Below are positions 5,270 to 53,982 of a DNA stretch of 64,000 bases, one piece after another (the stretch's first letter is position 1; every line of letters begins with the position of its first letter). A model generated the notes under the pieces. It worked only from the letters and a program-made list of their open reading frames with translations. It was not told the DNA's origin and searched no databases. The translations under genes were made by a program, and so were the position numbers. The stretch spans positions 1 through 64,000 of the IMG/VR virus record IMGVR_UViG_3300032245_001170; one strand, 5' to 3'. This stretch comes from a virus.

Positions 5270-8071
5270 ATGCCAGGTTTTCTAGGCGGTAGTTCAGGCA
5301 GTGGCACAGGCGGAGAAATCCGTTTCCCAGCCGAATTAATTGATCCGGTTACCAAGCTCCGTGTCTCCGAACCGCAGACACTTATTGATACCGACTTTGA
5401 GTATGGTCTACAGCCTACCAAGTGGGAAACAGTTGAGCTTATTAACAACACTCCATCGTTCTTTTCTAAGAGCGGTGATACAACCATCCCTAATATTGAG
5501 GCAATCACTACAACTGCAACCTCTCGTGAAATCAAAGTAACAACTGCTTTAGCTCACGGACTTGCTGTTGGTATCCCAATCAACGTAAGCGGTACTAAAT
5601 CTCTTACTGCTGATGGTTCTTATATTATTAACTCTGTTCCTACACCAACTACTTTTACATACCTATGTAAGCAAAATCAAGCGGATGCGTCTTCTATTGA
5701 AGACTTGTATACATCTATTATTACTGGTGAGTTCTTTCAAGGATCACAGATTAAGATTGCTGATTCTGACGGTATTGTTACTGACGCTCAAGGAGCATCT
5801 ACTCTAACCGTAAAGACTGAGTCTCCACACGGTTTTGGTCTTGCTACCCCATTCTATTTCCTAAACCTTAACTCAACAGTTTCTCAAGAGTTTGACTCTT
5901 CTAATACAAGCTCTAAAGCATTTGATGCTTCTAACTCTGCTACTGCTCAAGTATTTGACGGCTCTAACACTCTTACTTCATATCGACTTGACTTAGATAA
6001 CAATGCAGTGTCTACAGGAACTGTTAGCTCAATCTCAACTTACAACCCAACCCTTAATACAATTACTGTATCTCATACAACAGAGAACTTCTTAGGTTCT
6101 TCCGTAGGAACTCCCCTATACCATAACGTAACAACTGCTGGTGGGTACTTTGCTTCTAATCCTAGAGGCGTTGTATTTTTAAAGTCATTAAACACTGCAA
6201 CAACAAATGGTTCTATCTTTACCGTAAGTCAAGTTCCTAATGGACCAGAAATAGCTATTACAAATGCTTTAACTGGAACATTTCAGTTAGCAAATGAAGC
6301 TCGTTTATTTGCAGGTAACAATATTAACACTGCGACAGAAACATCTATTACTTTAATTGAAGAATCAGAAAAAACTTTTAATGGTACAAATACTGGAGGG
6401 CAGTTTTTAAATAACTGCTCGTTTAGCGGATCTAACGTTACTGGAGCTAGCGGATCTGGAATTGCAAATTTAGATTTATACCAAGGTTTAATGGTTAAGT
6501 ATGAAACTACAGGTACGCCACCAACAATTAACGCTGGTGGAGATACTGTTAATGGCGGATCAACAACTTCCCTAGTAAACGGTCGTACATACTTTATTGA
6601 AAGTTTTTTCCAAATAGGAACCTCTATTAACTACGTAGTTGTTCTTAAAGAGTTTCCTACTAGCGCCTCTAATATTAACTTTACATCTACTGGTACTGGT
6701 ACACATAAGTTTACTGCTATTGGAGTTGCTACAGATAAAGACGTATTTCACGTAAAAAATCATGGCTACTCTGTGGGAGATATGCTTAGATACACTTATC
6801 CTAGTGGGGCGAGATTTTCTGTAAACACTCCAGTTACTGAAGAAAAAGACTATTATTTTGTTGAAAGACTTTATGGTACCCATAACTTCAACCTTAACTT
6901 TACTATCGGAGAGTTAACTCCAAAGTTACAAGAATTTATTGGACTTACTGCAAGCAGTTCTTCTGTTAATATTTCCTTTACAGCAAGTGGGTTCACTTCT
7001 CCGCTTACTTTTAGCGTAACTAGCGGTACTTTACCTGCAGGATTAACTTTAAATCCGTCTACGGGAAACATTACCGGAACCCCTACTTCAGCCTATTCCC
7101 AAGCAACCGTTAGAATTACTGTTGTAGATGCTGCAGCCTCTACTGATTTTGCTGACGTTACTTTTCAAATCAATCCCCCACCATTCTTGTACGATCAAGT
7201 ATCTGTTACCTTTACTCCGGGAGGAGCAACTGGGGCTAATGGACCGTCAGATGCACAGGCCAGGTCTGGTGCGGGAAGCCCTTCTTGGGGAAACACGTAC
7301 ATTAGTACATCCGCCGGAATTATTCTGTGGACAGTCGGAAGAACTGGCACATACAACTTTACTTTGGCTGGTGCACGAGGAGGTACTAACTCAGGTGGCG
7401 GCCAACAAGGCGGTCAAGGAGCAGTTGGTTTTATAAACGGAGTTTCTCTTACTCAAGGAGAAGTTCTTAGAATTGTAGTTGGTCAAGTAGGTAGCAATGG
7501 CCCTGGTTCTACCGGAGAAGAATCCGGTGGAGGTGGAGGAGCTACGTTTGTACAAAGAAACGGAAATGCATCTCCAATTGCAGTAGCTGGTGGCGGTGGC
7601 GGTGGTTCTGCAAACCAAACAGGTATGAGCACAACTTCCGATAACAGAGGTTTGGCAGCTCGTCTTTCTAACTCTGGATCTACTAGCGGCGGTACAGGAG
7701 CATACGCACAGTTTGTTAACGGTACTCACGAAGGTGGTGGAGGTGGAGGCTGGGCTTCTAATGGAACCTGGTGGGTTGGTGGAATTACAACTAACCGTTT
7801 AGGAAAAGCTCTTAACTCTAGCGCTCAAGGAGGAGTTGCTGGTGACGGCGGAGGTCAAGGCGGATTTGGCGGCGGAGGTCAAGGCGGAAGAAATAACGGA
7901 GCAGCCGGTGGTGGTGGAGGCTATCAAGGTGGCTGGGGTGGAGTTTATCAAGATCCCGGACAAGGTTCCTCAGGTACTGGTGGACAGTCTGGTTCTGGTG
8001 GTTGGGGATTTGGTCTTTCATACACAGGTTACAACAACGGTAACGGATACGTAACCGTTACGAGGGTATAA
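5270..8071 (+). CDS. Large adhesin-like virion protein: Ig-like plus glycine-rich domain
   Basis: 933 residues, ATG after agagaggtaaaaatca. The N-terminal part starts with a Gly/Ser stretch and has several beta modules, including HGLAVGIPINVSGTKSL and short FDSSNT/FDASNS/FDGSNT repeats near residue 205. Residues about 570-640 form a putative Ig (He_PIG-type) domain: FTASGFTSPLTFSVTSGTLP then GLTLNPSTGNITGTPTS. Residues about 655-933 are glycine-rich (YNFTLAGARGG, GGGGGATFVQ, AGGGGGGSANQ), like the C-terminal adhesive domains of some phage fibres. It probably acts in host attachment. The exact position in the virion is unknown; the genes next to it encode fibres. Confidence 0.7.
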   Translation: MPGFLGGSSGSGTGGEIRFPAELIDPVTKLRVSEPQTLIDTDFEYGLQPTKWETVELINNTPSFFSKSGDTTIPNIEAITTTATSREIKVTTALAHGLAVGIPINVSGTKSLTADGSYIINSVPTPTTFTYLCKQNQADASSIEDLYTSIITGEFFQGSQIKIADSDGIVTDAQGASTLTVKTESPHGFGLATPFYFLNLNSTVSQEFDSSNTSSKAFDASNSATAQVFDGSNTLTSYRLDLDNNAVSTGTVSSISTYNPTLNTITVSHTTENFLGSSVGTPLYHNVTTAGGYFASNPRGVVFLKSLNTATTNGSIFTVSQVPNGPEIAITNALTGTFQLANEARLFAGNNINTATETSITLIEESEKTFNGTNTGGQFLNNCSFSGSNVTGASGSGIANLDLYQGLMVKYETTGTPPTINAGGDTVNGGSTTSLVNGRTYFIESFFQIGTSINYVVVLKEFPTSASNINFTSTGTGTHKFTAIGVATDKDVFHVKNHGYSVGDMLRYTYPSGARFSVNTPVTEEKDYYFVERLYGTHNFNLNFTIGELTPKLQEFIGLTASSSSVNISFTASGFTSPLTFSVTSGTLPAGLTLNPSTGNITGTPTSAYSQATVRITVVDAAASTDFADVTFQINPPPFLYDQVSVTFTPGGATGANGPSDAQARSGAGSPSWGNTYISTSAGIILWTVGRTGTYNFTLAGARGGTNSGGGQQGGQGAVGFINGVSLTQGEVLRIVVGQVGSNGPGSTGEESGGGGGATFVQRNGNASPIAVAGGGGGGSANQTGMSTTSDNRGLAARLSNSGSTSGGTGAYAQFVNGTHEGGGGGGWASNGTWWVGGITTNRLGKALNSSAQGGVAGDGGGQGGFGGGGQGGRNNGAAGGGGGYQGGWGGVYQDPGQGSSGTGGQSGSGGWGFGLSYTGYNNGNGYVTVTRV

Positions 8072-29302: not shown

Positions 29303-32248
29303 TTGGCAAATGCGTATGAGAACCTAGGCATTGACGACGAAGCGTTTACTGGGCAAAAAAGCGCTAACAAGTTCTTTGGAACCATCAACAAAGAGATTAA
29401 AAGTTTCCATAAAGAAATGGAAGCTATTGAAAAGCGTGCAGAAGCCTTCCGTGAACACATGGAGGCTGCAAGTAAGCTAGACCTTGACGGTACCGGTAAA
29501 TCTGGTAACACTATGGGTCGAAGTCTTGCAGACATGCCTGGAGGTGCTAAAAGAAGTACCGCTGCAAACGTTGGTTTAGGTGTAGCAGCCTTAGGTGCGG
29601 GTGCTATGGGCATCATGCCTAACACTATGACAGCAGTAACCCAAAGACTAACCGCTGAGGGTGTTGCAATGTACAGCTCTGGAGGAATGGGCTCCAAAGG
29701 AGTAATTGCTTCTGCCAACTCTACGATTGGTCGCGGTAATGCAACCAGTGCCATGGGACCAACTATGGCTATGGGGCAAATCCTGTCTCAAGGTGGTTAC
29801 GGTTCTCAATCAGTAAGCACACAGAGAATCATGAGCCAACTTGGTGGCATGAGCGCCATCAGTGGTATGAGCAATGAACAAGCCGCGGGAGCATACGCTG
29901 GACAAAACGGCATGAATATGCTGCGCCTAGGAATAAGACTTCGTGATCGAGAAGGAAATCTTAGAGCTCCTAATGAGATTATTAATGAGCTTTATTCAAA
30001 GATATATCGGGGTAAGACACCTAAGAATCCCGAGGTAATGTTTAGCCCTAACAGCATTGAATATCAGACAATCATGAACATTGCTGGTGGCGATCCAAAC
30101 CTCTTTAACGTATATACCAGCGGACTTATGGCTCGGTTTAAAAACAATAAGCCTCTTACAGCAAAGCAAATGTCCAGTGCTAAGGGCATGCTTGGAACTA
30201 TGGGCGTAGGCGGCGGAGTTCAAGCAAGTAACTTTAATTTTCAAAGCTCACAAAATAGAGCTTTAGGAGCAACAGAAGAAGGATTAGTTGGCGGGTATCA
30301 AGGTGCGCTTAGCGCAGCCGCTGCAGTCAACAACGGGTTCTCAGCCATGGCAGAGACACTACCAGGTGTTGTAAACGGCTTAGCAGCCCTTAAGGGAGTG
30401 CTACAGACCCTTCCTATGGCAGGCGGTGCAGGTGCCACAATGTCTGGCGCAGCAGGCATGCTTTCAAATGCATTAATGATGAAAATGATGTTTGGTCGGG
30501 GAGCAACAAGCCTCATACCTACAGTAGGGGCTGGAGCTGCAACAGGTGCGGGTGCAGGTGCGGCCGCTACCGCAGCAGGAGCAGGCGCCGCTGCAAGTAA
30601 GTTTGGTAAGTTTGCTGGAATGGGCAAAGCAGTACCAATTTTAGGTTCAGCTCTTTCTGCTTTTGGTGGATATCAAACTGCAAAAACAAAAAAGAAATTT
30701 GATTGGGGATCTGTACTATCTAGCGCAGCAATCGGAGGAGGTACGGGAGCTCTTATGGGCTCCGCAACTGGCCCTGGAGCACTAGTGACAGGACTAATTG
30801 GTGCGCTAATTGGTGGAGGATCAAACGCAGCAGGACAACTTCTAGGTGGTATGGGTGGTGGAGAGAGTACTGGACCATCCTCTAATTCTCCAGGAACCAC
30901 GCCTATGGCTATCAATCCTGCGCCAAACTATCAAAGAATTTCTTCTCAATATGGAATGAGAAACGATCCAAACAATCCTAAAGAAAGACATCACCACGGC
31001 GGTATTGATTACGCTATGCCTGTAGGAAGTCCCGTACTTGCTGCAGCAGATGGCATTGTAGATCAAGTAACTACTCAACCTAACTCTTCAAGAAGTTTTG
31101 GACACTATGTAGTTATTAAGCACGAAGGTTTTTTTACATACTACGCTCACTTAAGCAAGTCCGTAGTCAAGGTTGGACAAGAGGTTCGTCAGGGGCAGCT
31201 CATTGCTTATTCTGGTGGTAAGAAAGGTGCTTGGGGATCTGGAAGCTCTACAGGACCACACTTGCACTTTGAAGTTAGATTAAGTAAGGGAAGTAAGCAG
31301 TCTGTAGATCCTCAAAGTATCTTTGGAAAAATTAAATCAAAAGTATCTAGTATCTTTACTGGCAAAAGTTCTAAAGACGAAATAAGCGAAGAAGATCTCT
31401 CACAGTTTGTGTTGGGCGGTAATACGCCAAAAAGCACTCAATTTGCTGGTGGTCAACTACTTGCTGCAATTCAACGCGGAGGTCCGCTTAGCTACGGAGA
31501 TATATCTAAAGATGGTGCTTTAGATTACGCTAAAAAAGTCGGAGAAAGCTCTAGCGTATTAGACGGTCTTATGGGAGACAGTCAAATGACCGCTGCAAGC
31601 GGAGACAGCGGTGGCATGGCTTTTGGTTCTCGTAAAGGACTAGTAAATGCACTGTACAAAGAAGGCTTTCGTGGGAAGTCTTTGCAAACAGCTTTTGCGG
31701 TTGCTTTAGCTGAGTCTGGTGGCAGAGCTAAGGCGGTAGGGGACGAAAACTTAGTAAACAAAAAATATGGCCCAAGTTTAGGCCTATTCCAGATTAGAAG
31801 TTTAAAGGACCCTAAAAAGTATGGTGGAGGGGAATGGAGAGACGGAAAACGTTTAACTGACCCTTCGTTTAACGTTAAGGCCGCCTGGAACATTTCTAAT
31901 CAGGGTCAAAATTGGAAAGCTTGGTCTGCATATAATAACGGATCTTTTTCTAAGTTTTTAGATGATGCAGAATCTGCTTCAAAAGCAGCTGGAATTCCTG
32001 GTTACTTTTATGGCACTGACCGTACTAAAGAAGGTTTGGCTTACCTTCACCCAGACGAGATGGTTCTTAATAAAGGTCAAGCAGACCTTGTTAGAAACAA
32101 CCGCGGTAATGGTGGGGCAACGAGCATTAATGTTAGTATGACCGTTAATATTGCTAAAGCAGGAGATCAAGAAGTACTGGTTATGCTAGACAAATTTAAG
32201 AAAGCTATAGCTTCAGATCGAGATCTTGAACAGTTAGGTAAATACTAA
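29303..32248 (+). CDS. Tape measure protein with M23 peptidase and lytic transglycosylase domains
   Basis: 981 residues, TTG start with aaggtggtgag upstream. N-terminal coiled coil (about residues 15-60), then a Gly/Ala/Met-rich body with hydrophobic segments (about 360-520). Residues about 545-672 are an M23 (lysostaphin-like) zinc peptidase: HHHGGIDYAMPVGSPVLAA (HxxxD), HYVVIKHEGFFTYYAHL, and GPHLHFEVRL (HxH). Residues about 783-886 form a lysozyme-like domain: FAVALAESGGRAKAVG with catalytic Glu, and YGPSLGLFQIRSL. The C-terminus has the AYLHPDEMVLNKGQADLV motif common in tape measures. It sets tail length and digests peptidoglycan during DNA entry. Confidence 0.9.
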   Translation: MANAYENLGIDDEAFTGQKSANKFFGTINKEIKSFHKEMEAIEKRAEAFREHMEAASKLDLDGTGKSGNTMGRSLADMPGGAKRSTAANVGLGVAALGAGAMGIMPNTMTAVTQRLTAEGVAMYSSGGMGSKGVIASANSTIGRGNATSAMGPTMAMGQILSQGGYGSQSVSTQRIMSQLGGMSAISGMSNEQAAGAYAGQNGMNMLRLGIRLRDREGNLRAPNEIINELYSKIYRGKTPKNPEVMFSPNSIEYQTIMNIAGGDPNLFNVYTSGLMARFKNNKPLTAKQMSSAKGMLGTMGVGGGVQASNFNFQSSQNRALGATEEGLVGGYQGALSAAAAVNNGFSAMAETLPGVVNGLAALKGVLQTLPMAGGAGATMSGAAGMLSNALMMKMMFGRGATSLIPTVGAGAATGAGAGAAATAAGAGAAASKFGKFAGMGKAVPILGSALSAFGGYQTAKTKKKFDWGSVLSSAAIGGGTGALMGSATGPGALVTGLIGALIGGGSNAAGQLLGGMGGGESTGPSSNSPGTTPMAINPAPNYQRISSQYGMRNDPNNPKERHHHGGIDYAMPVGSPVLAAADGIVDQVTTQPNSSRSFGHYVVIKHEGFFTYYAHLSKSVVKVGQEVRQGQLIAYSGGKKGAWGSGSSTGPHLHFEVRLSKGSKQSVDPQSIFGKIKSKVSSIFTGKSSKDEISEEDLSQFVLGGNTPKSTQFAGGQLLAAIQRGGPLSYGDISKDGALDYAKKVGESSSVLDGLMGDSQMTAASGDSGGMAFGSRKGLVNALYKEGFRGKSLQTAFAVALAESGGRAKAVGDENLVNKKYGPSLGLFQIRSLKDPKKYGGGEWRDGKRLTDPSFNVKAAWNISNQGQNWKAWSAYNNGSFSKFLDDAESASKAAGIPGYFYGTDRTKEGLAYLHPDEMVLNKGQADLVRNNRGNGGATSINVSMTVNIAKAGDQEVLVMLDKFKKAIASDRDLEQLGKY

Positions 32249-38934: not shown

Positions 38935-41900
38935 ATGGCAAAATATGCATTTGGGATTTATGGCGATCCTAGTTTTAAGTACGGTCAAAGCGATGCTGAC
39001 CGCCTGTACTACTCCTCCCAAATTACTGCATGGGCATACGACTACGGAGTTATTTCCCTTCGTTGGAAAGCGGTTACCGCAAACCCTGCATCTATTGCCT
39101 TAGGAGAACAGTTAACTCACTGGAGATTAACAAAAACTTTTACTGGTACTCCAGACGGTGCTTATGTTGGAGACGTTGTTCTATCTGGCAGCACTGGATC
39201 ATATTTAACTAGCTATATAGATACTGCTTCAGACCTGTCTCAAGAAAACAGAGAAGTTACCTATACTCTATGGATTTTCAGTACTTTAAATGGTTGGATT
39301 AATTGTGGCACCTCTAAAGTAAACACAATTATTGAAAATAAAACTCAACGTTATTTTAAAAATTGGCTTCCAGCTGCTTGGCTAAACGAAGTTGAAGGTG
39401 TTGGGGATGCCGTTGGAGAGTACGAAGAAAATGAATTTACTGCTGTTCTGGATGCGTATGGTTTTGAGTATGACAAGATAAAAGCTCAGGCAGAACTTCT
39501 ATATAACTCTTTTGACGCTTATAAAATTCCATCTAACCTGTTAAAAAACAAAATTACAGATTTAGGGTTTATTTACGAACCCGCTCTTGGAGACACTTAC
39601 CATAGATCCCTGTATAAAACAGGAAACTTCATAAACTCAGCTAAAGGAACTAGTGCTGGCATTACAACCTACACCACTGCTTTAACTCACTGGGATAGTG
39701 GCATTGCCTATGGAAATAATTTATTTTTAGACTACAACGATTCTTCTTTTGAAGAGTCCGTAGGTCGTTGGGCGGCAACTAACGGCACTGTGGGCATCTG
39801 TACATATGCAAACACCTTATCTACTTTAGGGGTTGGTTTAACACCTCCAAAGCCAACTTTGGTAAATAAAGACTACCCTCTACGTCAAATATCTTTAGGA
39901 GTAGTGACAGCTTCAAGTACTAGTGATATTACCTTACGCTGCCCATCAAGCTCTGCAAGTGCAATTCTTTACGGAATTCCAGTAGAAGCCAACTCTAGGT
40001 ATATGTTTAAAGGATTTATTAGAGCAATAACTAATTCTTTTACCGCAGTAGCTAAAATTCAATGGTTTGATAGCGCCGGTAATTCTATATCTACAAGTAC
40101 TTCAGGACCAACTCTTTCGGCTACTACCGGTTACTGGTCTGAGTTTAGATCAGCATCTTCTGGTGTAGAAGACGGCTTAGTAGCCCCAAGTAATGCTGTA
40201 TATGCTAAACCTACTTTAGTTATTACTCCTACAGCTGGGTCAGATAAGTTTGTATTAGATATGCTTCAGTTTAGAAAACTTCCAGTTAGTGAAATTACAA
40301 TTAGTGGTAAATTGCCAGCTTTAGTATACGAAGACCCTAGACTTGTTAAGTTAAACATTAAAACAGACTTAGAAAACTTAATCCCTAATCCAGGTTTTGA
40401 TTTAGGAACTACTGGTTGGGAACCATTTAATGCTGAGTTAATACAGGTAACGCCTGCCCCAGCAAACTCTGCTATTTTTGGTAACGCTGTAGCAAAGCTC
40501 ACTGCTCTATCTAACGGAAGAGTAGCGCTTGTATCTGATTGGATTCCAGTAACCCCGGGAGCTCCGCATAATTTTGCTATTTACGCAAGTGGAGCAGCAA
40601 AAGTAGCAAAAGCAAGAATTGAATTTTCTGCACCGCAAACACAAGAAGAGCAGACTACCGTTCTTATTGATGGGGATGGGCGATACTTCAAATCAGAACC
40701 TTATTACGTCGATGGAGACCCACTAACACTTACAAACAGCGCAACACGTTTGTATGTGCAGGCAGTATCGGCTGTTTCTACACCGGATTACGGCAACCCC
40801 CTATGTAAAGTATCTATTTACATAGATAATGCTGTGGCAGGTGACGTATTTTATTTTGATGGCGCTATTTTAGCAGAAGCAACTAAAGTTGTTGATTATT
40901 TCCAAGGTAACGGTGCTCCAGTGCCTAATGACCCAAACGTTAATTATTATTACAAAACTAGTGATTGTTTTTGGGAGCGTAGGAATCAAGTAAACCTAGT
41001 GTCTATTTCCTCTTTAGAAAATGCAAGTAAATGGACGGCAGCTTCCGGAACTACCTTGACTATAAGTACTTCCGAATTTAAGTACGGAACCAGTTCTTTA
41101 AGCGTATCTGCCTCAGGAGGTGGCTCTGCATCTACGGTAGTAAAACTTCCTATGGGGGCAGCGTTGGGCGGGGAAGACTTAATCATCTCTACCTACGTAA
41201 AGGGAGTAGCTGGTCTTTACTCGATCAGCACTAACGGTCAAATGTCAGGTAATTTTAGAATTACTGTTCCAAACGTTTGGACCCGTATTGAAACTAAAAG
41301 AGTTTCTGTAGCAGGAGAAACGCAGTTTACTATTACAGTTTCTTTAACAGAAGCTGGTACCGGAACTAAAGTATTTTTCTTAGACGGCATTCAAGCAGAA
41401 TATGGAAGAGTAGCAACTCCTTACATCGACCCCGCTGATCCAGAAACATCTGTGTTTACAAATCCATCTGATGCACTAGAGACTTTGTCTGTAGCTAATA
41501 GTCTTATGGTAGGTAGTGGTACAAGTTATTATGCAAATCGCTATATACAAAAGACAGCTAGATTAAAATCAACACTAGGAAGCTTTATGCCCGCAGGATC
41601 CACGTGGTCTATTGAACCTTCTTCAGAATTACTTGGTTTTCCGGATGTTGAAGACAATCTTGCTCCTTCAGGATCATTTGAAAACAGTACCTATGGATGG
41701 TCTGGTGTTTCTGCAACCCTTACTAGAACTACTGCTAGAGGAAGCATCTTTGATGAGACCCTTGTTCAAGGTGCCGCTTACGCAAAAGTAAAAGCTTCTG
41801 GCTCAGGAACTTTTGGTGCTATAACAAATCTAATCTCAGTAATACCTGGAAAGGGATACTACGGATCTGTAGCAATCCGCCCAGAAAACGAAGATGCATA

Positions 41901-42363
41901 TGGAACTTATGTTATGACCCTTAAATGGTACGACTTAGCGCAAAACTTCTTAAGAGAAAAGACAGACACTGTAGTATTGAATCGTGGAGATCGCTGGGCA
42001 TACTTAAACATTGTTGCTCCCGGATCTAAGACGGTTACTTTATCTTCTCTTTCCGTAGCATCTAACGTAGTTACTGTAACTACTGTAGGAAATCACGGAT
42101 TCTCAATAGGTGAAGAACTATACGTAGGTATTGGTGAGTCGGCCTATGCCGCCCTTAACGGCAGTGTTACTATTACGGCAGTAACCCCCAATACCTTTTC
42201 ATATAGCCAGACTTTTGCTAATACGGCGTCTACTGAAATAACCGGAAGAGCAACATTTGCTAATACCAGCATTGGTTTTGCAAAAATTCAGGTTACCTGC
42301 ACCCCTTCAGTTTCAGGAACAGGCCGAGTCTTCCACCTTGACAAGGTTTTGTTTAGAAGGTAG
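38935..42363 (+). CDS. P2 gpI-like tail protein fused to carbohydrate-binding-like modules
   Basis: 1142 residues. Residues about 10-125 look like a fibronectin-type domain. Residues about 138-245 have the gpI-like pattern RYFKNWLPAAWLNEVEG, YGFEYDKIKAQAELLYNSFD, and GDTYHRSLYKTGNFINSAKG. Four jelly-roll modules of the CBM4/9 type follow, marked by DYNDSSFEESVGRWAATNG (near 265), NLIPNPGFDLGTTGWEPF (near 483), SSLENASKWTAASGTTLT (near 694), and NLAPSGSFENSTYGWSG (near 908). A last beta module contains NHGFSIGEELYVG. Baseplate attachment and glycan binding in one chain suggest the main receptor-binding protein. Confidence 0.75.
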   Translation: MAKYAFGIYGDPSFKYGQSDADRLYYSSQITAWAYDYGVISLRWKAVTANPASIALGEQLTHWRLTKTFTGTPDGAYVGDVVLSGSTGSYLTSYIDTASDLSQENREVTYTLWIFSTLNGWINCGTSKVNTIIENKTQRYFKNWLPAAWLNEVEGVGDAVGEYEENEFTAVLDAYGFEYDKIKAQAELLYNSFDAYKIPSNLLKNKITDLGFIYEPALGDTYHRSLYKTGNFINSAKGTSAGITTYTTALTHWDSGIAYGNNLFLDYNDSSFEESVGRWAATNGTVGICTYANTLSTLGVGLTPPKPTLVNKDYPLRQISLGVVTASSTSDITLRCPSSSASAILYGIPVEANSRYMFKGFIRAITNSFTAVAKIQWFDSAGNSISTSTSGPTLSATTGYWSEFRSASSGVEDGLVAPSNAVYAKPTLVITPTAGSDKFVLDMLQFRKLPVSEITISGKLPALVYEDPRLVKLNIKTDLENLIPNPGFDLGTTGWEPFNAELIQVTPAPANSAIFGNAVAKLTALSNGRVALVSDWIPVTPGAPHNFAIYASGAAKVAKARIEFSAPQTQEEQTTVLIDGDGRYFKSEPYYVDGDPLTLTNSATRLYVQAVSAVSTPDYGNPLCKVSIYIDNAVAGDVFYFDGAILAEATKVVDYFQGNGAPVPNDPNVNYYYKTSDCFWERRNQVNLVSISSLENASKWTAASGTTLTISTSEFKYGTSSLSVSASGGGSASTVVKLPMGAALGGEDLIISTYVKGVAGLYSISTNGQMSGNFRITVPNVWTRIETKRVSVAGETQFTITVSLTEAGTGTKVFFLDGIQAEYGRVATPYIDPADPETSVFTNPSDALETLSVANSLMVGSGTSYYANRYIQKTARLKSTLGSFMPAGSTWSIEPSSELLGFPDVEDNLAPSGSFENSTYGWSGVSATLTRTTARGSIFDETLVQGAAYAKVKASGSGTFGAITNLISVIPGKGYYGSVAIRPENEDAYGTYVMTLKWYDLAQNFLREKTDTVVLNRGDRWAYLNIVAPGSKTVTLSSLSVASNVVTVTTVGNHGFSIGEELYVGIGESAYAALNGSVTITAVTPNTFSYSQTFANTASTEITGRATFANTSIGFAKIQVTCTPSVSGTGRVFHLDKVLFRR

Positions 42364-42373
42364 GTTTCTGGCT

Positions 42374-42649
42374 ATGACAGAACTTCTAGTGGCAGCTTGG
42401 GCAACAGCCTGTCTATTAACAGCCATAGAAGAACTATTAATATCCTTAGGAAAATGGAGGGGCCTACTTGCCCTCTCTATGAGCACAGTAGCGTGCTTAG
42501 TTCTTATGCCGATAGGGTGGAATTTAATTTTCTACGTCCTCGCCTCCGCTTTTGTGGGGCTAACCTCTTCTGTGGTTATTGAAAATCTTGTAACGGGAAC
42601 CCCAGAAAGAATTCAACGCGGCTTGCCAAGAAGGGTACCTCCCCTATAG
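42374..42649 (+). CDS. Small membrane protein
   Basis: 91 residues from the ATG at 42374. A longer frame from 42257 lies inside the previous gene and is not needed. It has three hydrophobic segments: TELLVAAWATACLLTAI (about 2-18), GLLALSMSTVACLVLMPIGW (about 30-49), and LIFYVLASAFVGLTSSVVI (about 51-69), then a basic tail (RIQRGLPRRVPPL). It resembles a small holin or membrane-anchored accessory protein at the end of the tail operon. The true holin may instead lie beside the endolysin at 62 kb. The promoter of the replication operon lies in its last codons. Confidence 0.55.
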   Translation: MTELLVAAWATACLLTAIEELLISLGKWRGLLALSMSTVACLVLMPIGWNLIFYVLASAFVGLTSSVVIENLVTGTPERIQRGLPRRVPPL

Positions 42650-42650
42650 A
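42623..42650 (+). promoter_or_regulatory. Promoter of the replication operon
   Basis: TTGCCA (42623-42628) and TATAGA (42645-42650) with a 16-base spacer give 5/6 and 4/6 matches to sigma70 boxes. It sits exactly at the border between tail and replication genes. Transcription would start near 42656-42658, inside the 5' arm of the hairpin at 42650-42674. Confidence 0.55.
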
Positions 42651-42674
42651 GTCTGCTCCGACAAGGAGGAGACT
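42650..42674 (+). promoter_or_regulatory. Hairpin burying the ribosome site of the replication operon
   Basis: agtctgctcc (42650-42659) pairs with ggaggagact (42665-42674) around the loop gacaa, with one G-G mismatch in the middle. The Shine-Dalgarno sequence ggaggag is within the 3' arm and the stem ends directly before the ATG at 42675. In RNA reading through from the tail operon this should block initiation; RNA started at the adjacent promoter would lack most of the 5' arm. Confidence 0.6.
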
Positions 42675-43577
42675 ATGAAGTCACCATATTCAGACCCAAA
42701 CCTTTCGCTACGTGCTAGAGGTTTATTTGCCTATTACGTTGAAGTTGGACGTGTGTTATCTGCCGACGAAATGTCTGCATCTGTACCAGAAGGTCGAGAT
42801 GCAATTAGAAATGCTATGGCAGAATTAAAACTGCATCGATATATAAAAGCCGTAAGGCATCAAGATAATTCTGGTCAATGGAGAACAAATCTCAAATTCA
42901 CCGACGACGGATTATCAGGCGTTCTATACATTGACAGAGGTACAATGACTAATACTAATACTAGTGATATGTCTACTAGAGTTAAGAGTATAGATACAGT
43001 TACTAACGTAACTGTATCTATAGAGGCTGCGCCTCAAACAGAGAAAGGAACTGAGATGGCATGGGATATGTTCGAAGACAGCACAGACCCGAAACCTAAG
43101 AAGAAGGTTTTGGATACTGAAGATGATTCTGGTGCTATAGGAAAAGTTAATACTTTGAAGGTGGGCGGTGCTCGCCGTAAAAAAACTAGGGTTGAGGTAG
43201 AGGCCCGTAATAGAATCAATGTTCCGGAAGAAGACTGGTCAACTAATGATCTTGTTGCAGAATTCTACGACCTGTACATGGCTACCTGCGGTGGCAGTGG
43301 CGCAGTAAATCAAATCTCTGGAAAACAACTTGCTACTTGGATTAACAAACGAGTTGGTGAAGGTGTTGAACGCATTCACATTCTCAAGGGCATGCGGATG
43401 TTCTTTGGAGATACCCGAGTTATCGCAGACCCCGGTTTTGGACTTCCGATGTATCAAAGATTTATGAAGTACTACGGAATGATTCACGGAATGGTAAGTC
43501 GAGTTGACGAACCGATTGGTTTGGACGAAGATACGTTAGCGCATCAGGAAAAGATGCTGAAACTATTGGAGAGCTAA
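42675..43577 (+). CDS. Helix-turn-helix replication protein, probable initiator or helicase-loader partner
   Basis: 300 residues, first gene of the replication operon. The N-terminal 85 residues form a winged helix: LSLRARGLFAYYVEVG, LSADEMSASVPEGRDAIRNA, MAELKLHRYIKAVRHQDNSG. This is the arrangement of phage replication initiators of the DnaD/O-protein type. A charged linker (about 90-175) is followed by a helical C-terminal domain (LVAEFYDLYMATCGGSGAVN, QLATWINKRVGEGVERIHIL). The next gene is a DnaC-like loader, so the pair probably recruits DnaB to the phage origin. Start fixed by the flush ribosome-site hairpin. Confidence 0.6.
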   Translation: MKSPYSDPNLSLRARGLFAYYVEVGRVLSADEMSASVPEGRDAIRNAMAELKLHRYIKAVRHQDNSGQWRTNLKFTDDGLSGVLYIDRGTMTNTNTSDMSTRVKSIDTVTNVTVSIEAAPQTEKGTEMAWDMFEDSTDPKPKKKVLDTEDDSGAIGKVNTLKVGGARRKKTRVEVEARNRINVPEEDWSTNDLVAEFYDLYMATCGGSGAVNQISGKQLATWINKRVGEGVERIHILKGMRMFFGDTRVIADPGFGLPMYQRFMKYYGMIHGMVSRVDEPIGLDEDTLAHQEKMLKLLES

Positions 43578-49708: not shown

Positions 49709-50218
49709 ATGGCTCTTATACCTATGCCTGGAAAAGGCTATCCAGATCACGATTGGCACAAAAAGCAAGTAGCTGTGCCGCCAAAATCAATAACAATCAA
49801 TTCCCTATTCCCAAACTTTGATCGTTGGGCTATTGGGTTTGGACCTATGTTAACTACCTTTAACGAGGTATCAGCTTCGGCTAAACAGGCTTCCTACCCT
49901 CCGTACAATATTCGGCAAATTAACAAAGATCTTTATTACATTGAGATGGCTTTGGCAGGCTTTAACAAAGAAGGCCTAAGCGTGACAGTCCAAGAAAACA
50001 TCTTAACTATTTCTGGCGAGGGAATCAATAGTTTCCTAGGAAATAGTGAGTTTGACTATGTACACCAAGGCTTGGCTAGACGGGACTTTGACCAAGAGTT
50101 CACCCTTGCTGAGCACGTAGAAGTTACCTCCGCTGAATTTAAGGATGGGCTTCTAACTATTACCCTAGAACGAATCCTCCCTAAAGAAAAGCAAGCTAAA
50201 GCTATTACCATCCAGTAA
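49709..50218 (+). CDS. Small heat-shock protein, Hsp20 family
   Basis: 169 residues. The alpha-crystallin domain spans about residues 65-165: YNIRQINKDLYYIEMALAGF, NKEGLSVTVQENILTISGEG, DFDQEFTLAEHVEVTSAEFK, and DGLLTITLERILPKEKQAKA, with the ITIQ tail. Holdase chaperone preventing aggregation; several T4-like and cyanobacterial myoviruses carry one. It may aid folding of the very large fibre proteins of this phage; that link is inference. Confidence 0.9.
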   Translation: MALIPMPGKGYPDHDWHKKQVAVPPKSITINSLFPNFDRWAIGFGPMLTTFNEVSASAKQASYPPYNIRQINKDLYYIEMALAGFNKEGLSVTVQENILTISGEGINSFLGNSEFDYVHQGLARRDFDQEFTLAEHVEVTSAEFKDGLLTITLERILPKEKQAKAITIQ

Positions 50219-51223: not shown

Positions 51224-51925
51224 ATGGGTATCCGCATTGAAAGCCAAGCAACACCAAACGTCGATTCTTATGTAGTCGACACCCCTACTACCGAAGTTCT
51301 CGAAGAGATCTTCCAAGCTGAAGACGAATCAGAAGTTCCTGAGCGTTCTTCAGTAATTCAAACAGGTTGGGCAGCAGCTAAGAAAGCTGTAGCAAAGTCC
51401 AACAAAACATTCGCAACTGACTTCCGCTTTGACGAGGATGTCCAACTAATTAAATTCATTGGTAATGAACCAATGTCCTTTATGCAGCACTGGGTAAACC
51501 GTCCTGGAAAGAAGTCCTTTATTAGCATTGGTGAGGGTGACCCGCTAGTTGCTGTAGGAAGTAAGCCAGATCAAAAGTTTGCGTTTACTGTACTTAACCT
51601 ATCTGACGAAGATCCACAACTACAACTAATGATTGTTGGAGTTCGTCTCTGCGGACAACTTGAGAAGCTTGATTCTGATAAGAAGACAGGTCCACTTAAT
51701 CGTCCTGACATTTACTGGGCAGTCAGCAAGTCTGGCACCGGTACAAAAACATCATACTCAGTTACACCTGTAAAAGAGCGTGACCTTGCTGAGGATTGGG
51801 GTATTGACCCTGTTGCAGCCTCAGAGCTAATCAAAACAATGAAGCCACTAGGACCAGATGCGTTACATACATCTACCAAGGCTGAACTTGCTGAGATTGC
51901 TCGTGAAATTGCATCCGGTAACTAA
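51224..51925 (+). CDS. Probable ssDNA-binding or related DNA-associated protein
   Basis: 233 residues, aaaggaat before the ATG. FRFDEDVQLIKFIGNEPMSF and MQHWVNRPGKKSFISIGEGD, DPLVAVGSKPDQKFAFTVLN and LSDEDPQLQLMIVGVRLCGQ follow the layout of T4 gp32-like/actinobacterial phage ssDNA-binding proteins, including a segment where others carry a zinc site, although the cysteines are absent here. Codon use is favourable, as for an abundant protein. It sits directly before DNA polymerase. The call is from pattern and context. Confidence 0.5.
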   Translation: MGIRIESQATPNVDSYVVDTPTTEVLEEIFQAEDESEVPERSSVIQTGWAAAKKAVAKSNKTFATDFRFDEDVQLIKFIGNEPMSFMQHWVNRPGKKSFISIGEGDPLVAVGSKPDQKFAFTVLNLSDEDPQLQLMIVGVRLCGQLEKLDSDKKTGPLNRPDIYWAVSKSGTGTKTSYSVTPVKERDLAEDWGIDPVAASELIKTMKPLGPDALHTSTKAELAEIAREIASGN

Positions 51926-51939
51926 TCCCAAATAATCGT

Positions 51940-51985
51940 GCTGGGGGCTCAGTCTCTTGTCTCCTTTCTCTAATGAGCCCCCAGC
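51940..51985 (+). terminator. 12-bp GC-rich inverted repeat before DNA polymerase
   Basis: gctgggggctca (51940-51951) pairs with tgagcccccagc (51974-51985) around a pyrimidine-rich 22-base loop. It lacks a downstream T-run, so it is either an attenuator or an mRNA-processing/stabilising element. Its last three bases are shared with the hairpin at 51983-52005, so the two cannot fully form together. Confidence 0.5.
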
Positions 51986-52005
51986 GCACCTAATCAAGGA
52001 GCGCT
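51983..52005 (+). promoter_or_regulatory. Hairpin burying the ribosome site of DNA polymerase
   Basis: agcgc-a-cct (51983-51991) pairs with agg-a-gcgct (51997-52005) around the loop aatca, with one A-A mismatch. The Shine-Dalgarno aagga is in the 3' arm, and the stem ends directly before the ATG at 52006. The layout is nearly the same as the hairpin at 42650. A translational operator is likely. Confidence 0.55.
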
Positions 52006-53982
52006 ATGAATATTATTACTACAGAAAAACAACTTAAAGATCTTGTTGCTGCCTACGATAAAGTAGATGCGTTTTGTTTCGACGTAGAAACAGTTGGCAA
52101 CCATAGAGGAGACCCACGTCAAAATATTGTTACGTGGATTGCGTTAGCTACTCATGATCGGGTAGATGTTATTCCAATGGGACACCCAAATGGTGAGTAT
52201 TTGCGTACCGAATACCCTTTGCTTCCTTCTGCCGTAGTCAGAGTATCTAAAGGCATGGAGTTAAGAGATTCTGATTACAGTAAGGATGAGCGCAAAGCAA
52301 CTCGTATCTTTGGCCCAGCACCTGAGCAGTTAACTGCGGGAGAAGTGTTTAAGGCTTTAAAGCCCCTATTACATAGTGACAAGGTAAAGATTGGTCACAA
52401 CCTTAAGTTTGATTTACAAAGCGTTACTAAATACATTGGGCAATTGCCTACACCAAATTACTTCTGCACATTGAATGCTGCGTTTATCTTAGATAACCAG
52501 AACCGCAACGATCTTGGATTAGATGATTGTTTAAAGCGCGAGTTCGGTTATCACATGGTCAAAGGAGTAGGTAAAGAAGTAGAGAAGCACAGTTTTGACG
52601 AGGTTGCTACATACGCTGCGTTAGATGCTGAGTGGACTTGGAAGTTGTACCTCCTTTACTCTATTAATCTTGAGAAGGACGGTCTCCGTGGCATTTTTAA
52701 CTTAGAGATGGATGTTCTAGAAGTTATCTGCCGTATGGAATTACGCGGTGCGGATATAGATGTTGCAGAGCTAGAAAACTTGAAGGCCAACCTTGAAGTT
52801 CAGCTTGAGACTTGTAAGGCTACTATCTATCGTCTTGCAGGAAAAGCTTTTAACATCAACAGTGTTCCTGAAAAACAAAAGATGCTGTATTCACCTAAAA
52901 AAGATGGTGGCAGAGGGTTGCGTCCAAAGGTACTTACTCCTGCTGGACAGAAGCGGGCAGAGGAAGGTCAGCCCTCCTCGGTAGCTGACTACTCAGTAGC
53001 AGAGCCTGCGTTACAGGCCTTTGCAGGAAAGGATCCATTAGTTGATGCTCTTATTGAGTATTCAGATTTAAACAAATTATTAACTACTTATGTAATTCCG
53101 TATATGGGTGGGGATATAACTAGAACTTTGGCGGGTAAATCTAAAGTTACCGCTAAGAAGAGCATCATGTTCAAGGGCAGAATCCACACAGACTTTGTTC
53201 AGTATGGCGCAGAGACTGGTCGTTTTTCTAGTCGTAATCCAAATCTTCAAAATGTACCTGCTCCACACACATTTAACGGAAAAGCCATTCGTAATCTTTT
53301 TGTTGCTCCGGAGGGGCACTCTTTAGTAGTTGCCGACTACAGTCAGATCGAACCTAGAGTTATTGCTTCATTTAGCCAAGATCGAATTATGTGTGGGGCT
53401 TATCTAAATGGAGAGGATATCTATACCACTATCGGTAACACTATGGGTGTAGATAGAAAAGCGGGTAAGGTCTTAGTTTTATCCTTAGCTTACGGTGTGG
53501 GTCCAGATAAAATTTCTGATTCAATTGGTTGTTCTTTACCTGAAGCTAGAGAGCTATTGGATGAGTTCGTCCGCAAATTCCCATCTGTTGCTAGGTACAA
53601 GAAACAGGTTATCAGCGATAGCCGTAGGCAAGCTCCAATCCCCTTTGCTAGTACTTTGTTAAAACGTCGCCGGTATCTACCTGACCTGAGATCCCCAGAG
53701 GTTTGGAAGCGTTCTAGGGCTGAACGTCAGGCTTTTAACACGGTTATTCAAGGGTCGGCAGCCGACCTCATTAAACTTGCTATGATTAGGGCTAACAAAA
53801 TGATCCCAGAAAGGGCTTCTCTAATTTTAACTGTGCATGATGAGTTAGTTACTGTTACCCCTAATGAGATTGCAGAAGAAACGGCTGAACAGATTCGTAA
53901 AGCTATGGAAGAAATTAAAGCATTGAATGTTCCGATGCTCGCAGACATCACGATTGTAAAGCGATGGGGAGAGGCTAAATGA
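52006..53982 (+). CDS. DNA polymerase, family A, with 3'-5' exonuclease domain
   Basis: 658 residues. Exonuclease motifs: FCFDVETVGNHRGDPR (Exo I, DxE) and IGHNLKFDLQSVTKYIG (Exo II), FDEVATYAALDAEWTWKLYL (Exo III). Polymerase motifs: GRFSSRNPNLQNVPA, motif A VVADYSQIEPRVIASFSQD, motif B DRKAGKVLVLSLAYGVGPD, and motif C LILTVHDELVT. No 5'-nuclease domain. Main replicative polymerase. The next gene starts within its stop (ATGA). Confidence 0.95.
   Translation: MNIITTEKQLKDLVAAYDKVDAFCFDVETVGNHRGDPRQNIVTWIALATHDRVDVIPMGHPNGEYLRTEYPLLPSAVVRVSKGMELRDSDYSKDERKATRIFGPAPEQLTAGEVFKALKPLLHSDKVKIGHNLKFDLQSVTKYIGQLPTPNYFCTLNAAFILDNQNRNDLGLDDCLKREFGYHMVKGVGKEVEKHSFDEVATYAALDAEWTWKLYLLYSINLEKDGLRGIFNLEMDVLEVICRMELRGADIDVAELENLKANLEVQLETCKATIYRLAGKAFNINSVPEKQKMLYSPKKDGGRGLRPKVLTPAGQKRAEEGQPSSVADYSVAEPALQAFAGKDPLVDALIEYSDLNKLLTTYVIPYMGGDITRTLAGKSKVTAKKSIMFKGRIHTDFVQYGAETGRFSSRNPNLQNVPAPHTFNGKAIRNLFVAPEGHSLVVADYSQIEPRVIASFSQDRIMCGAYLNGEDIYTTIGNTMGVDRKAGKVLVLSLAYGVGPDKISDSIGCSLPEARELLDEFVRKFPSVARYKKQVISDSRRQAPIPFASTLLKRRRYLPDLRSPEVWKRSRAERQAFNTVIQGSAADLIKLAMIRANKMIPERASLILTVHDELVTVTPNEIAEETAEQIRKAMEEIKALNVPMLADITIVKRWGEAK

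Follow-up and report, generated by a model that had tools for sequence, protein, structure and literature searches.

A T4 gene e-like start-in-stem leader appears to guard the replication genes of an uncultured lake phage lineage

In bacteriophage T4, the genes e, soc, 49 and I-TevI carry a hairpin over the SD on RNA started upstream, and transcription from their own promoters yields RNA with a free SD (PMC3014915, PMC2988022). All T4 genes known to use this device are late genes carried on early and middle transcripts (PMC2988022). The leader described here resembles these cases in its predicted SD hairpin on the long RNA and in an own promoter located in or after the 5' arm; as among the relatives of T4, the structure is missing in some family members. 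The arm logic is also that by which the insertion sequences IS10 and IS50 are protected from outside transcription, where the ribosome site of the transposase gene is folded away on transcripts that come in from outside, and RNA from the own promoter lacks one arm; these elements have no sequence relation to the present locus. A stable SD hairpin directly after an upstream stop codon is likewise found in translational coupling systems (PMC7538156), in contrast to which the hairpin studied here would be cut by an internal promoter, allowing translation independent of the upstream gene. The principle is already known from T4; here it would guard replication genes that lie behind virion genes. 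Whereas the T4 cases concern late genes and T4 late promoters, here a replication gene lies behind tail genes and is preceded by a sigA-like promoter. Further differences from T4 are the fusion of the promoter to the upstream stop codon and a putatively leaderless neighbour with a promoter of its own; the present case is a prediction from sequence and comparison.

The window is the whole stretch of DNA analysed, i.e. positions 1 to 64,000 (64,000 nucleotides) of the IMG/VR record IMGVR_UViG_3300032245_001170, a 101-kb genome (101,587 bases) from an uncultured lake phage lineage. Left of the leader lie contractile-tail structural genes (sheath, baseplate hub, tape measure and baseplate wedge) on the + strand, and the final gene of this module is preceded by those for tail sheath, baseplate hub and baseplate wedge. 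To the right, also on the + strand, follow replication genes for a DNA-binding protein, a DnaC-like loader, a DnaB-like helicase, a primase, an SNF2 helicase and polymerase A (Table 1). Between promoter P1 and the replication gene no convincing terminator was found, and the tail genes are on the same strand. A stem-loop at 42480-42499 was rejected as a terminator, being located within the 91-aa gene and having no clear T tract. A search of the window against Rfam gave no match. Two further features of the modules were noted: a metallo-endopeptidase/endolysin-like domain (residues about 545-675) embedded in the tape-measure-like protein (window 29303-32248), and a gene for an Hsp20-like small heat-shock protein (window 49709-50218) within the replication module.

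Table 1 Features of the leader region and its neighbouring genes (window coordinates; promoters, start point and hairpin are predicted)
Feature	Position	Strand	Remarks
Final structural-module gene	38935..42363	+	1142 aa, tail-fibre-like position, no family match
Promoter P1	42338..42366	+	TTGACA 42338-42343, 17 nt, TAGGTT 42361-42366; predicted start at or beside ATG 42374
91-aa membrane-protein-like gene	42374..42649	+	no SD; stop TAG 42647-42649
Promoter P2	42623..42652	+	TTGCCA 42623-42628, 18 nt, TAGAGT 42647-42652; conserved in 35/35
Hairpin 5' arm	42650..42659	+	AGUCU-G-CUCC; also -10 end and discriminator of P2
Predicted P2 start	42659..42660	+	last 5'-arm base / first loop base
Hairpin loop	42660..42664	+	GACAA
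Hairpin 3' arm	42665..42674	+	GGAG-G-AGACU; holds SD GGAGGAG, flush with start codon ATG 42675
Replication-initiator-like DNA-binding protein	42675..43577	+	300 aa, opens replication module
Downstream replication genes		+	DnaC-like loader 43577, DnaB-like helicase 44948, primase 46806, polA 52006

Relatives of the locus were sought in viral contigs, the proteins encoded on either side of the leader and alignments of these serving as queries; the scans yielded 42, 52, 54 and 67 loci in partly overlapping sets. Identity of the downstream protein among these loci ranged from 99% to about 43%. A scan of viral contigs with the promoter block returned 45 contigs with a single match each, at the leader position in all those examined. 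The initiator had no match among isolated phages in a tblastn search, and a pattern search of genome contigs gave 42 pattern matches with no relative among them, hence no direct host link.

A first, sequence-only reading of the window had proposed a promoter, TTGCCA-16-TATAGA, followed by a stem that ends at the start codon of the replication gene. All elements are located as it described them (TTGCCA 42623-42628, 16 nt, TATAGA 42645-42650, the stem and ATG 42675), and the promoter is conserved in 35 of 35 compared sequences; its -10 element, however, is TAGAGT at an 18-nt spacer, two bases away from TATAGA. TATAGA was rejected as the -10 since it is absent in the most distant forms, which keep TANNNT at 18 nt. 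The pattern TTGCCA-N18-TANNNT is present in near and far relatives alike, with the -10 forms TAGAGT (window clade and L172), TAAAGT (L171, L179, L183), TAAACT (L175-L178) and TAATAT (L180-L186). The bases of the spacer drift while TA(A/G)NNT stays at 18 nt, and TA(A/G) is at the same time the stop codon of the 91-aa gene. The -35 hexamer comprises codons 84 (TTG) and 85 (CCA) of this gene, both invariant in the 35 sequences; elsewhere in the gene leucine is encoded by TTG in only 18 of 565 cases (3%) and proline by CCA in 44 of 124. By this comparison, the P2 hexamers are kept as DNA. A generic scan for E. coli-type promoters also chose TAGAGT with an 18-nt spacer at this site, but found 17 promoter-like sites in the region versus 24 in shuffles, and the assignment of P2 is therefore based on conservation and not on a consensus score.

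A start at or before 42649 was considered as well, for instance by a phage polymerase reading CTATAG, in which case the hairpin would be a 5'-terminal element of its own transcript. The sequence CACTATAGAG of some relatives resembles the core of SP6 and T7 promoters and would favour such a start. TATAG is nevertheless lost in distant relatives, where TANNNT persists at 18 nt (CGCTAAAGT, GCTAATAT, GGTAAACT), and the block has no further copies in the genome. The T7/SP6-like promoter reading of CTATAG was rejected on these two grounds, and a start at or before 42649 is hardly credible. A family search for a single-subunit RNA polymerase found none and, having been run with no positive control, is uninformative.

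Both P2 and the upstream promoter P1 fit the actinobacterial sigA pattern; the host itself we infer. The consensus in Corynebacterium glutamicum is TTGNCA, 16-19 nt and TANNNT/TANANT, followed by 3-11 nt to the start (PMC3890552), and the -10 of P. acnes is likewise TAnnnT (PMC3848588). Across the whole genome, TTGNCA-N16..19-TANNNT occurs at most 30 nt upstream of only two start codons, those at 42374 and 42675. The replication proteins are closest to those of Streptomyces phages (33-39% identity), and one structural protein is closest to that of Actinomycetia phage DSL-LC01, whose own host is a prediction. An actinobacterial host is plausible from these affiliations.

P1, which was absent from the first reading, lies 285 nt upstream of P2, overlaps the stop of the last tail gene, whose TAG is the beginning of its -10, and stops 7 nt short of the 91-aa gene's start codon. 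TTGACA-N17/18-TANNNT is found 6-8 nt from this ATG in 32 of 35 sequences, the exceptions being L179 and L183, with one -35 mismatch each, and L131. The placement of P1 and the lack of an SD in the window copy lead to the prediction that the 91-aa gene is leaderless. In mycobacteria, initiation requires an ATG or GTG at the RNA end, and such a codon suffices for it (PMC4633059). With a predicted start directly at the ATG or next to it, P1 resembles the actinobacterial sigA promoters that give leaderless mRNAs (PMC3890552, PMC3848588, PMC4633059). Some relatives have an AAGGAG whose distance to the ATG is about 13 nt or more, and leaderless use of the gene thus stays a prediction. The 91-aa protein has no match to a Pfam or PHROG family and is about 80-98% conserved, compared with 49-99% for the neighbouring replication protein in the same phages. 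Within its gene, codons 20-24 (window 42431-42445, GAACTATTAATATCC) are invariant in 35 of 35 near relatives and drift in far ones, unlike leucine codons elsewhere in the gene, which vary; this block may be constrained at the DNA level and is possibly another promoter or site.

The distance from P1 to its ATG calibrates the start of P2, which is accordingly placed 7 nt past the -10, at about 42659-42660. The start had been expected at 42656-42658, within the 5' arm; with the -10 defined by the relatives the position moves to the hairpin tip, and the start-in-stem geometry fits even better than in that reading. The proposed likeness to T4 gene e agrees with predicted energies, opening of 42663-42677 costing about 13 kcal/mol on upstream-started RNA (12.8-13.0 kcal/mol for starts at 42100, 42250 or P1) against about 5 on promoter RNA (5.2-5.4 kcal/mol for a start at 42659-42660, and 6.1-8.4 kcal/mol for one at 42656-42658). 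A host-sigA-type P2 would drive the replication operon, with its RNA beginning at the hairpin tip. This RNA would lack the 5' arm and be directly translatable, the first replication gene having its ribosome site in the 3' arm. Transcripts from P1, predicted to contain the full hairpin, or RNA reading through from the tail genes would carry the whole structure, so that de novo initiation at the replication gene would be strongly hindered. Translation of the replication initiator would thereby be tied to its own promoter. By sequence and predicted energies the locus appears to be a T4 gene e-like start-in-stem device acting on replication genes, and it probably couples their translation to P2, a reading held with moderate confidence. 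Conservation of P1, P2 and the window-clade hairpin is its comparative basis, together with predicted energies; the start point, the use of sigA, the block to translation and any timing in infection are what we infer.

The stem consists of nine pairs and one G-G mismatch (MFE -14.1 kcal/mol). The predicted sequestration of the SD, as described in the sequence-only reading, is well founded: this leader is the most stable 25-nt leader among the 129 SD-led starts of the whole genome (next -10.4), the hairpin recurs in relatives, and only 0.045% of random 25-mers from the same genome reach equal folding stability. The hairpin could also be a functionless by-product, with P2 needing a pyrimidine-rich discriminator that happens to pair with GGAGG; the 5' arm is indeed the discriminator of P2. 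When only the 5' part of the window leader was shuffled, 0.15% of the trials attained the observed energy; holding the -10 end constant raised this share to 0.6%. Likewise, for 10 of the 15 leaders in the TAGAGT clade, shuffles of the 5' part with fixed composition and -10 end attained the observed energy at a rate of only 0-1.5%, which argues against a by-product, whereas for L023 and L125 shuffled arms were equally good in about one third of trials.

Since the loop and bulge lengths differ, a MAFFT alignment of the leaders put the arms wrongly, and an arm-swap test and the shuffles were used in place of a column-wise count of covariation. Exchange of 5' arms between types cost a mean of only 0.8 kcal/mol (p = 0.03, the rows being related to one another); exchanged arms thus pair nearly as well, as a by-product would predict, and arm-specific covariation is modest because any CU-rich arm pairs with GGAGG. 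The lower stems beyond the SD are nonetheless built differently in different phages and still paired (AGUCU/AGACU in the window, UUUGU/ACAAA in L024, AUCUC/GAGAU in L034 and UAUCC/GGAUA in L179). The paired changes put forward as a check on the hairpin are therefore seen as compensating lower stems in several relatives, and the arm swap adds only the p value above. Furthermore, relatives lacking a CU-rich discriminator keep the promoter, so none is needed, and a mere by-product is quite improbable. Selection on the SD-sequestering hairpin is supported by these comparisons.

Every leader in the TAGAGT clade has the hairpin (15 types, -8.8 to -14.1 kcal/mol). An SD hairpin is shared by all relatives with a protein identity of at least about 48-49%, and the L179/L183 group has one at 43%. 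Weaker or rebuilt forms are those of L171/L172 (-7.4 kcal/mol) and L179/L183 (-10.9 kcal/mol); L041 has an indel in both arms, and little of the lower stem is left in L117 and L121/L122. The distant L175-L178 and L180-L186 keep promoter and SD and have no stable hairpin in the leader (0 to -3.3 kcal/mol), which makes the device dispensable within the family. A ribosome site kept without its pairing, which the first reading had said would count against the switch, is thus found in these distant phages, but not in the window clade. In L131, with the most distant upstream gene (46%), neither promoter nor hairpin was found. Among the relatives compared, P2 is more widespread than the hairpin.

A second leader in the window is also structured. 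The leader of the polA-type gene at 52006 (window 51925-52005) is predicted to form an extended hairpin of high GC content, with about -27 to -33 kcal/mol for the leader as a whole; this hairpin is kept in 12 of 12 distinct leaders compared, distant relatives included. Its loop reads CTCCTTTCT in most of them (ACCTCCTTTCT in the far clade) and CTCCTTTTCT in L196/L197. The loop resembles the 3' end of actinobacterial 16S rRNA, and in several leaders it is complementary to the gene's own SD (AAGGAG in the window). An SD pseudoknot or an anti-SD mimic is possible.

The 91-aa stop, located inside the P2 -10 and likewise absent from the first reading, abuts the 5' arm, and RNA started upstream is therefore possibly not blocked. 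On RNA from P1 or from the tail genes, ribosomes terminating at 42647-42649 would sit over the 5' arm or melt it and so free the SD; the footprint of a terminating ribosome spans about the whole 5' arm. In such translational coupling, the hairpin would make translation of the replication gene depend on that of the membrane gene and would not be an off-switch, a role compatible with the P2 route. The stop-to-start gap is only 24-28 nt, and in the window as in all relatives with the hairpin the stop touches the 5' arm or lies directly before it, although its position is fixed anyway as part of the P2 -10 and this contact is no separate line of evidence. For coupling in E. coli, the likely and favoured mechanism is that upstream ribosomes melt the structure (PMC7538156), and the conserved P1 would provide an upstream transcript from which the 91-aa gene should be translated in leaderless fashion. 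Coupling alone nevertheless leaves the conservation of P2 unexplained, and on tail read-through RNA the SD-less window 91-aa gene may stay untranslated. We consider coupling a serious yet unlikely explanation. Compared with the window, one relative, L003 (positions 5970-6005), carries a 93-nt deletion (window 42557-42649) and has thereby lost P2 and the 91-aa stop. Its hairpin and replication-gene start codon are intact, and the upstream frame continues through the hairpin into the replication gene, so that ribosomes would traverse the hairpin, as coupling would have it. A hairpin and gene kept after the loss of P2 speak against the start-in-stem reading. L003 may be a phage that relies on coupling; it may also be artefactual, reflecting the assembly or a population variant.

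For the start-in-stem device, silence is more plausible on tail read-through RNA, because the 91-aa gene of the window has neither a 5' end nor an SD there. This allows the tentative suggestion, somewhat doubtful at present, of a translational insulator formed by two genes where the virion and replication modules meet, with tail read-through RNA expressing neither gene. The leaderless 91-aa gene would then be read well only from P1 RNA starting at its AUG, and the replication gene only from RNA starting at P2. If true, the replication module would be kept silent on virion transcripts by two adjacent means that depend on the RNA end. The leader is conserved over dozens of natural variants, with or without the hairpin, which constitute a panel for distinguishing insulation from coupling. 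If the start-in-stem reading is right, a phage whose two modules share a strand could ignore read-through without a terminator.
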